From Spirochaetia bacterium (GTDB lineage Bacteria > Spirochaetota > Spirochaetia > CADAEX01): 64,000 bases of DNA. The translations under genes and the position numbers were made by a program. Under the pieces are notes generated by a model. That model was given only the letters and a program-made list of their open reading frames with translations. It was not told the origin of the DNA and searched no databases. Numbering within the stretch: the stretch's first letter is position 1; the number at the start of each line of letters is the position of its first letter. Shown piece by piece: positions 34,233-35,465 of the stretch. The DNA lies in contig JAFSOR010000020.1 in assembly GCA_017446885.1 (NCBI GenBank), positions 1 through 64,000 on the forward strand. The letters run 5' to 3'.

Positions 34233-34667
34233 TTACACCCTCTGAAGCACTTTGTCGTATGTCTTGAGGGGGACTGCCAGGCGGCGGGCAAGCTCAAGAT
34301 AAGAGGCATCGTAGTATGTAAGACCATGCTCTGCGGCCAGGTCAAAAATCCTCTGCCTAATCTCTCCGGTATTCTGTATATCTGTTACAATAGGCAGCTG
34401 CTGCAGGTTGAACATCAGGTCTCTTGCATCAGCTTTTGAGAGAGGTATCTGTTTTGAGTTTCTCCTTCGGGTACGGCAGAGCAGAACGTTTCCAATCTCG
34501 TACCAGAAAAGCTGTGGCACATGGATCTGCCCGTTGTGTGTAATTATATATTCAATATCCTTGACGCATTCTGAGAGCTCATCATCGCAGATTCCGTTCA
34601 ATAGATATGCAGCCATAAAAGAGGTGTCTGCCACAAAGCAGGGGAATGTGTCAGTATTTTCTTCCAT
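34233..34667 (-). CDS. PIN-domain toxin VapC
   Basis: A 144-aa PIN ribonuclease toxin. Active-site acids are visible in FVADTSFMAAYLL, VPQLFWYEIGNVLL and LTYYDASYLELARR, and the C-terminal PLKTYDKVL is a typical VapC ending. The start overlaps the antitoxin gene by 17 nt. It is the second toxin-antitoxin pair within 4 kb. Confidence 0.87.
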   Translation of the reverse strand: MEENTDTFPCFVADTSFMAAYLLNGICDDELSECVKDIEYIITHNGQIHVPQLFWYEIGNVLLCRTRRRNSKQIPLSKADARDLMFNLQQLPIVTDIQNTGEIRQRIFDLAAEHGLTYYDASYLELARRLAVPLKTYDKVLQRV

Positions 34668-34935
34668 AATCTTTCATCTCCTTGATGTCAGAAGCTGTAA
34701 GGGGAGCAAGCCCACCTTTCTCCATTCTGAAGGACAGTTCTGAGGATATCCTCATGATCCGCCTGTGGGCTTCCATTGCTGCTGTGTTCTGTATTTTCTT
34801 CTCTCCCTGGAGCACTGCCACCTGCTTGCCGTTCTTTGAGATGTTCACAGTTGTCCCCTCCTGCACTTTGCGGAGCAGTTCGGAGAAATGGGTCTTTGCA
34901 TCGAATGCACCTACATTGATTACTGCCAATGCCAT
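34651..34935 (-). CDS. Phd/YefM-family antitoxin
   Basis: A 94-aa antitoxin with the Phd/YefM DNA-binding pattern GAFDAKTHFSELLRKVQEGTTVNISKNGKQVAVL, followed by a toxin-neutralising tail. The ATG at 34935 is chosen because GGAGG is about 6 nt upstream; a longer frame to 34962 is not supported. It is paired with the downstream PIN toxin, which makes this a Phd-VapC type module. Confidence 0.85.
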   Translation of the reverse strand: MALAVINVGAFDAKTHFSELLRKVQEGTTVNISKNGKQVAVLQGEKKIQNTAAMEAHRRIMRISSELSFRMEKGGLAPLTASDIKEMKDYGRKY

Positions 34936-35058
34936 ATATGCCTCCTGCTTATAAAATAACACAGCCTTTTGATAAAATCAACCAGTTTTTAAACCAGTCT
35001 GATTATGCCCCCTCCAAACCATACGCCTGAGCCACAACCACTGATATTGCACAACACA

Positions 35059-35136
35059 GCCAGCAAAAGGCATGCCGGTCGGTATCCCTGGCCCGTAGGG
35101 AGCAGGACCACCGAGCCGGCGTGCCTTATTGCTGGC
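35059..35136 (+). ncRNA. ffs: Candidate small SRP RNA (4.5S-like)
   Basis: A 78-nt single rod. Outer stem GCCAGCAA/TTGCTGGC (8 bp), then GGCA/TGCC, GCCGG/CCGGC, TCGGT/ACCGA. The apical part (35084-35109) includes GGGAGCAGG, close to the conserved GGAAGCAGC of SRP helix 8, opposite CTGGCCC. The tetraloop is unusual: GTA or CGTA in place of GGAA. I see no clear promoter directly upstream. An alternative is an unrelated stable hairpin; a covariance-model search would decide. Confidence 0.5.
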
Positions 35137-35141
35137 TATTA

Positions 35142-35170
35142 TTGACTAAAGTACCTGTTTGTGGTACAAA
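35142..35170 (+). promoter_or_regulatory. Promoter of the T-box-controlled acyl-CoA synthetase
   Basis: TTGACT (35142-35147), 17 bp, TACAAA (35165-35170). The start is expected near 35177, just upstream of T-box stem I. Confidence 0.55.
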
Positions 35171-35176
35171 AGCTAT

Positions 35177-35461
35177 AACTGCGATGACGAAAATCCAGTA
35201 GGATGCCGTTAACCTTCGTAGAGAGCTGCCGGTTGGTGCAAGGCAGTGGAGGCCGGTGCTCCGAATTACCTTTCCGAGCAGCGCCTTGAAACACTTCCAA
35301 AGTGGAGTAGGGGTCGCCGGGTACGCCCGTTACAGCGCCAGGGTATGTCAGTACCTGACAAGGCTTTTCCTGCGAGGGAAAGGCAAACAGAGGTGGTACC
35401 GCGGGAACTCTCGCCCTCTGTGTTTTCTTAAGATAACACCGGGATAACATTTTTAGGAGTA
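35177..35461 (+). promoter_or_regulatory. T-box leader (tRNA-sensing riboswitch), Ile- or Leu-type specifier
   Basis: Standard T-box parts occur in order. AGTA of the specifier loop is at 35197-35200 and AGAGAG at 35220. The distal stem CTGCC/GGCAG encloses GGTTGGTGCAA (35226-35246). The specifier strand GAATTACC is at 35263-35270. Stem III-like GTCAGTACCTGAC and GCTTTTCC/GGGAAAGGC follow, and then the T-box core TGGTACCGCGG (35394-35404) flanked by CAGAGG/CCTCTG. The specifier reads ATT (Ile, followed by the usual ACC) or TTA (Leu). The T-box UGGU fits a tRNA with discriminator A. No U-tract terminator is seen before the AGGAG, so control may be translational. Confidence 0.88.
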
Positions 35462-35465
35462 ACTT

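Follow-up and report, generated by a model that had tools for sequence, protein, structure and literature searches.

A T-box leader most likely specific for tyrosine precedes a predicted arylacetate-CoA ligase gene in a ruminant-gut spirochaete

Introduction

What does a T-box, a tRNA-sensing leader RNA, do in front of an acyl-CoA synthetase gene in a spirochaete? A 2008 survey found T-boxes in none of six spirochaetes (PMC2494555), and a 2013 survey gave them as confined to Firmicutes, Actinobacteria, Chloroflexi and Thermus/Deinococcus, together with Geobacter (PMC3766115). The question arose from a reading of 64,000 nt of DNA from a Spirochaetia bacterium (the whole stretch is called the window here). 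This original prediction placed a T-box with an Ile or Leu specifier before the gene, held such an RNA to be unexpected in spirochaetes and suggested a laterally acquired regulator reused for a new purpose. Here we follow it up computationally, from the leader and its homologues to the gene neighbourhoods of its target and the T-boxes of other Spirochaetota.

Results

A class I T-box upstream of an acyl-CoA synthetase gene

The window leader is a true T-box. The Rfam model RF00230 matches the plus strand over its full length (model positions 1–219 of 219) with 109.1 bits, above the gathering score of 93, and E = 3.5e-23 for the whole window; the antiterminator fold is kept, and every part that the original prediction had listed is found in its place (Table 1). 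The specifier loop carries the AGUA/GAA S-turn and a codon, and the antiterminator carries a UGGN bulge whose N is U, complementary to A73 of the tRNA. The genome's own tRNA-Tyr (GUA) has an A73 discriminator when its acceptor stem is read by inspection from G1 (ARAGORN makes the stem one pair longer); A73 cannot distinguish between Tyr, Leu and Phe. In a set of 20 homologous leaders, the four pairs of the element in the stem II region are invariant (20/20), the antiterminator pairs form in 92% of cells, against 45–63% when the partner strand is slid, and double changes preserve pairing at 21 of 42 predicted consensus pairs.

Table 1. Features of the T-box leader and the gene that it precedes, in window coordinates
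Feature	Position	Strand	Basis
Candidate promoter: TTGACT 35142–35147, 17-nt spacer, TACAAA 35165–35170	35142–35170	+	read from sequence; predicted
Class I T-box leader RNA with a long stem I	35175–35421	+	full-length RF00230 match
Stem I with specifier loop	35189–35274	+	covariance-model alignment and sequence
Stem I lower helix, GAAA / UUUC	35189–35192 / 35271–35274	+	covariance-model alignment
AGUA (AGTA in DNA), facing GAA in stem I	35197–35200 / 35263–35265	+	
AGAGAG, stem I	35220–35225	+	
Closing strands of distal loop, CTGCC / GGCAG	35226–35230 / 35242–35246	+	
Distal loop GGTTGGTG (RNA GGUUGGUG)	35231–35238	+	
Specifier strand GAATTACC	35263–35270	+	
Specifier, most likely UAC; predicted partner, tRNA-Tyr anticodon GUA	35267–35269	+	alignment columns, thrS calibration, codon usage in PMC7778990
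Stem II region element CGGG-UACG-CCCG	35318–35329	+	alignment and 20 leaders
Antiterminator / antisequestrator	35388–35420	+	covariance-model alignment and pairing count
Antiterminator helix A1	35388–35393 with 35415–35420	+	
T-box bulge UGGUACC, in antiterminator	35394–35400	+	
Antiterminator helix A2	35401–35405 with 35410–35414	+	
Competing 3′ fold (predicted)	35414–35459	+	folding
Hairpin CCC..GUGUU / AACAC..GGG	35414–35443	+	
U-run	35450–35454	+	
Shine–Dalgarno sequence AGGAG	35455–35459	+	
AMP-forming acyl-CoA synthetase (ACS), 544 aa	35466–37100	+	Pfam PF00501 (E 6.6e-70) and PF13193

With RF00230 class I leaders such as that of Bacillus subtilis tyrS, the window leader shares stem I with its specifier and distal loops, the stem II region, stem III and the UGGN-bulge antiterminator, and with Tyr T-boxes the UAC specifier. 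It differs from them in its spirochaete host, in the absence of an evident strong intrinsic terminator in its clade, and in its target, an acyl-CoA ligase rather than an aminoacyl-tRNA synthetase, a transporter or a classic biosynthetic gene. Upstream lies a candidate promoter whose TTGAC box recurs at the equivalent position in most homologous leaders; a consensus promoter scan stayed below its threshold at this site.

The leader ends 45 nt upstream of the ATG of the ACS gene, whose PF00501 and C-terminal PF13193 domains place the product in the ANL superfamily, as an AMP-forming acyl-CoA synthetase in agreement with the original prediction. In NCBIfam, the model that scores best is that of a long-chain-fatty-acid ligase, below cut-off, and no equivalog model reaches its cut-off. 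A search of PDB sequences for a relative that would define the substrate returned generic FadD, 4CL and feruloyl-CoA ligase matches only. In the window, the ACS gene is followed by folP and cdaA rather than by amino-acid genes; folP also neighbours the gene in a related locus (L003), and another (L007) has a different downstream neighbourhood.

T-boxes in Spirochaetota

The host is a ruminant-gut spirochaete, represented by a metagenome-assembled genome (MAG). The nearest ACS loci, 93–94% identical, come from 'Spirochaetia bacterium' MAGs of yak, buffalo and sheep stomachs, in keeping with the predicted spirochaete origin, and a horse-faeces spirochaete has the locus at 82% identity. The host's own genome sequence, which we rebuilt from regions, amounts to 1.75 Mb in 28 contigs and is 94.5% complete, a MAG in which genes may be missed. 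It holds exactly two RF00230 matches, the leader of the ACS gene and that of a gene for an SSS-family symporter.

A T-box in a spirochaete is not exceptional, because 72 of 393 Spirochaetota genomes carry one, mostly before the threonyl-tRNA synthetase gene (thrS). These genomes were drawn evenly and searched with RF00230 at a cut-off of E <= 1e-6; those with a match usually have one, and several are single-contig assemblies. The gene 3′ of the T-box is thrS in most loci read, and thrS T-boxes occur widely within the class Spirochaetia (for example, L087–L111 and L219–L232). The survey rules out the idea that spirochaetes have no T-boxes, so the surprise that the original prediction had voiced falls away, and it brings in a phylum that earlier surveys gave as T-box-free (PMC2494555, PMC3766115). 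In a search of mostly open-access papers, we found no report of spirochaete T-boxes. Contamination of the MAG was rejected as a cause: five other assemblies share the leader and the ACS gene, and single-contig spirochaetes have thrS T-boxes.

Other targets occur as well. In a genome of the window genome's family (G337; loci L086 and L218), a UAC (Tyr) T-box precedes a gene of the tyrosine phenol-lyase / tryptophanase family. At loci L222 and L231, one T-box, with a GAA-UGG-A specifier (Trp), stands before the gene of an ABC substrate-binding protein resembling TrpX, and the other before two consecutive genes, the first trpB-like and the second trpA-like.

The specifier most likely reads tyrosine

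The specifier loop reads GAAUUACC and is followed by the UUUC that pairs with GAAA. Which codon it presents depends on where counting starts: UUA (Leu) from GAA, AUU (Ile) from GA, and UAC (Tyr) from the lower helix. The original prediction had called Ile or Leu. We find UAC the most likely specifier, because the Rfam alignment, a calibration on thrS leaders, the 'C-rule' and the homologous leaders agree. In the Rfam alignment, the window UAC shares its columns with UUC of one ACS leader (L013) and UAC of three others (L001, L011 and L045), and at this position 15 of 20 aligned ACS leaders have UAC and 5 have UUC. The calibration used 23 spirochaete thrS leaders, 22 matched directly by script and one by eye; the Thr codon ACC lies one nucleotide ahead of the lower helix, within GAAAACC[A/C] in 21 of the 23, within GAACACCC in one and, by eye, within GAAAACCC in the last. 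The window loop is one nucleotide longer than that of the clostridial leaders. Of the Tyr specifiers in TBDB, 99% are UAC, whereas UUA accounts for 1% of Leu specifiers and the rare Ile codons AUU and AUA for 1% each of Ile specifiers (PMC7778990). Readings from GAA or GA are rejected on the thrS calibration and the C-rule (PMC7778990); given the longer loop, UUA or AUU keeps a small formal probability. The predicted tRNA specificity of the leader is therefore for Tyr, and through the pathway proposed below the specifier amino acid would match the regulated gene.

Expression platform

In the window clade, a conserved GUGUU/AACAC hairpin is joined by CCC/GGG pairs, and these are in competition with the antiterminator; a U-run follows about 7 nt beyond. 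Folding also gives weak pairing, in some orthologues, of the Shine–Dalgarno sequence with CUCU of the antiterminator strand. Strong terminators are present in ACS leaders of Bacillota (clostridial) and Chloroflexota, in that of L001 and in the leader of the host's own SSS gene; the ACS leaders of window-clade spirochaetes lack one and have only the weak hairpin and the distant U-run. The predicted 3′ fold is weak as an intrinsic terminator and may sequester the Shine–Dalgarno sequence. Control in this clade would act by weak termination or by masking of the Shine–Dalgarno sequence, and we lean slightly towards masking.

ACS orthologues lie beside genes of a proposed route from aryl acids to aromatic amino acids

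Gene context points to the substrate of ACS. Among the neighbourhoods of 80 orthologues that we fetched are iorA/iorB (indolepyruvate:ferredoxin oxidoreductase, IOR; about 30 loci), paaK (phenylacetate-CoA ligase; about 16), an aminotransferase gene and the SSS symporter gene, identities backed by NCBIfam and Pfam, with IorA over its cut-off in 27 of 41 genomes searched. The iorA and iorB genes lie directly 3′ of the ACS gene or after the symporter gene, often followed by paaK and the aminotransferase gene, and several Bacillota show the arrangement T-box, ACS, SSS, iorA, iorB, paaK. Linkage to iorAB extends over Bacillota, Chloroflexota (Anaerolineaceae) and spirochaetes (L008–L010 and L032). 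The culturable Ruminococcus callidus has iorAB with ACS at L053. Where T-boxes precede ACS orthologues or their operons, they read Tyr or Phe; none was found upstream of the ACS gene at L008–L010, L032, L016–L019, L021 or L027. The operonic association with iorAB, paaK and an aminotransferase gene points to the making of aromatic amino acids from aryl acids, and from these neighbours we predict that ACS is an arylacetate-CoA ligase, acting on 4-hydroxyphenylacetate or phenylacetate.

In the window genome, the ACS gene is not adjacent to iorAB, and the parts that relatives hold in a single operon are scattered. The ACS gene with its T-box is on contig C16. The symporter gene is on C24 behind the second Tyr T-box, and its product shares 58% identity with the SSS encoded in the L013 ACS operon. 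On C17, paaK stands before an ACT-domain-like gene, and iorAB is on C19 (42652–44828), adjoining an aminotransferase gene and a UbiD-family gene; the latter, a predicted decarboxylase (L114, 4360–5700), is flanked by the aminotransferase gene and iorAB. The IorB of this genome meets the NCBIfam cut-off of NF005324, and its divergent IorA scores 514 bits against the 650.9 of TIGR03336, below cut-off, with the C-terminal part of the model missing.

Shikimate genes are present, as are those for chorismate synthase (aroC) and prephenate dehydratase (pheA). Prephenate dehydrogenase (tyrA) was not found in five of six genomes compared (G000, the window genome, where tblastn also gave none, and G001, G002, G004 and G005); the congeneric G003 has it, and the matching site on C19 of the window genome is without it. 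A complete loss of aromatic biosynthesis is thus ruled out, tyrA alone being missing. In Bacillota and Chloroflexota that carry the operon, pheA and tyrA are mostly kept, so the route there would be an addition and not a replacement.

We consider it likely, on this combined evidence, that a class I Tyr T-box governs an arylacetate-CoA ligase that feeds reductive carboxylation by IOR and transamination to Tyr or Phe. When tyrosine runs short, the GUA anticodon of uncharged tRNA-Tyr would pair with the UAC specifier, and the ACCA end of this tRNA with UGGU in the bulge, stabilizing the antiterminator and allowing the ligase to be expressed. The ligase would activate scavenged 4-hydroxyphenylacetate, phenylacetate or both to the CoA ester, with PaaK as a further enzyme for this step; IOR would carboxylate the arylacetyl-CoA reductively to the arylpyruvate, and the aminotransferase would yield Tyr (or Phe). 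The sign of the T-box, on when starved, agrees with biosynthesis. The logic would then be the usual response to amino-acid starvation, and what the original prediction took for a new purpose is better placed in the pathway, which is the new part.

Precedents exist for the separate components. In a 2026 report (PMC13285125), an AMP-forming ligase of Bacteroides that is co-located with IOR was characterized by assay as an arylacetate-CoA ligase, with a proposed role in aromatic amino-acid synthesis, as we propose here; the organisms are different, and its available text mentions no T-box. Rumen microbes form Phe from phenylacetate, as older physiology has it (cited in PMC7356843). Methanogens make aromatic amino acids from aryl acids through IOR, but these are archaea and no T-box is involved. 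Outside Bacillota, the geobacterial leuA and Dehalococcoides trp T-boxes likewise serve amino-acid biosynthesis (PMC2494555, PMC2700814); they control canonical pathway genes, whereas the window T-box would control acid activation for reductive carboxylation. A search of mostly open-access literature gave no paper linking T-boxes to this class of pathway, and a known RNA device appears here to control one without an earlier T-box link.

Alternative explanations

The strongest competitor takes the specifier as UUA or AUU, from GAA or GA, and has ACS activate isovalerate or 2-methylbutyrate, from which reductive carboxylation would lead to Leu or Ile. In its favour, rumen bacteria make Leu, Ile and Val by reductive carboxylation (PMC7356843), the window genus has VOR and lacks ilvC and ilvD (both absent in six of six genomes, G000–G005, with VorB present in five of the six), and Val and Ile T-boxes stand on ACS genes in two other spirochaetes. 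We nevertheless regard it as unlikely, since counting from the GAA side fails on the thrS leaders, and homologous leaders of a single gene would be assigned to Leu, Phe and Tyr, or else carry the rare Ile codons AUU/AUA. Moreover, ACS orthologues adjoin iorAB and paaK rather than vor; the window genome has a separate cluster of vor, HTH and ACS genes on C3, without a T-box; and the Val/Ile T-box genes encode an ACS of another type, fused to HTH and cupin domains.

A genuine T-box might instead serve lipid metabolism, with ACS activating fatty acids and amino-acid starvation acting as a growth signal. Generic fatty-acyl-CoA ligase models score on ACS, and folP and cdaA rather than amino-acid genes follow it, but the recurrence of operons with iorAB, paaK and the aminotransferase gene across at least three phyla, where the specifiers are aromatic throughout, makes this very unlikely; ACS is probably not a stray fatty-acid target. 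We think it highly improbable that ACS and IOR run oxidatively in the fermentation of aromatic amino acids to aryl acids, with the T-box tied to this. Amino-acid fermenters do use IOR-type enzymes in this way, as in the p-cresol pathway with its ADP-forming or kinase partners. AMP-forming ligases favour CoA-ester synthesis (both from PMC13285125); a T-box turns genes on under amino-acid shortage, which is the wrong sign, and the window genome is without tyrA. Decay of the T-box to a non-functional relic would fit the lack of a strong terminator in the window clade and one weakened homologue (L026, 64 bits). Its probability is close to negligible given a leader that is 81–91% conserved over six spirochaete assemblies, including L007 with its other downstream neighbourhood, and whose antiterminator and specifier are intact.

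Probable lateral transfer of the gene with its leader

In an ACS tree built by a quick method, phyla are mixed and spirochaetes are found at three positions; a 34-row set (SH-aLRT 97) contains the window clade and that of L008, L009, L010 and L032, alongside Chloroflexota and Bacillota. The window T-box shares 61–72% identity with the ACS T-boxes in other phyla, and groups with ACS T-boxes; its identity is 62% with the T-box of the host's own SSS gene and 45–51% with spirochaete thrS T-boxes. Because the tree mixes phyla and the leader is nearest to ACS T-boxes of other phyla, the gene and its T-box look to have been acquired as a unit from outside the phylum. This supports the lateral acquisition originally suggested. 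The ACS gene and its T-box may have spread across phyla together, which would make this a clear example of an RNA regulator that travels between phyla with its gene.

A parallel for valine and isoleucine

Two other spirochaete genomes (G422 and G266) have two T-boxes each, with GUC (Val) and AUC (Ile) specifiers by the same counting rule. These four T-boxes (L216, L217, L233 and L234) come with terminators and precede genes for HTH–cupin–AMP-binding ACS fusions. In both genomes ilvC and ilvD are absent and VorB lies about 5 kb from the Ile T-box; five further members of G422's genus, with a single T-box match each, keep ilvC and ilvD and are without VorB. The parallel lends support to a more general view, and no other finding argues as strongly that the window case is more than a curiosity. 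That view, towards which we incline with moderate confidence, is that in gut anaerobes T-boxes recur as a laterally mobile layer of control where scavenged carboxylic acids are turned into amino acids by reductive carboxylation: Tyr/Phe specifiers go with arylacetate-CoA ligases (and IOR), Val/Ile specifiers with HTH–cupin–acyl-CoA ligases (and VOR), and the regulated route replaces the classic pathways in spirochaetes that have lost ilvC/ilvD or tyrA. A specifier that names the amino acid would thus give a substrate prediction for generic 'long-chain fatty-acid-CoA ligases', and specifiers could reveal the volatile and aryl acids of the rumen on which uncultured gut spirochaetes depend.

In the window genome, VOR genes on C3 (122586–131776; L168) are followed by alternating HTH and AMP-forming ACS genes, with no T-box. 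This cluster is probably the branched-chain counterpart.

Sequences adjoining the leader

On the minus strand of the window, a Phd-family antitoxin gene (34651–34962) overlaps a gene for a 144-aa partner, possibly a PIN-type toxin; the two span 34233–34962 and form a putative toxin–antitoxin pair adjoining the leader. Between the Phd gene and the candidate T-box promoter, positions 35060–35138 form a long, near-perfect hairpin (−57.9 kcal/mol as RNA). It is a REP-like palindromic repeat, with about ten further copies in the genome that are 82–89% identical.
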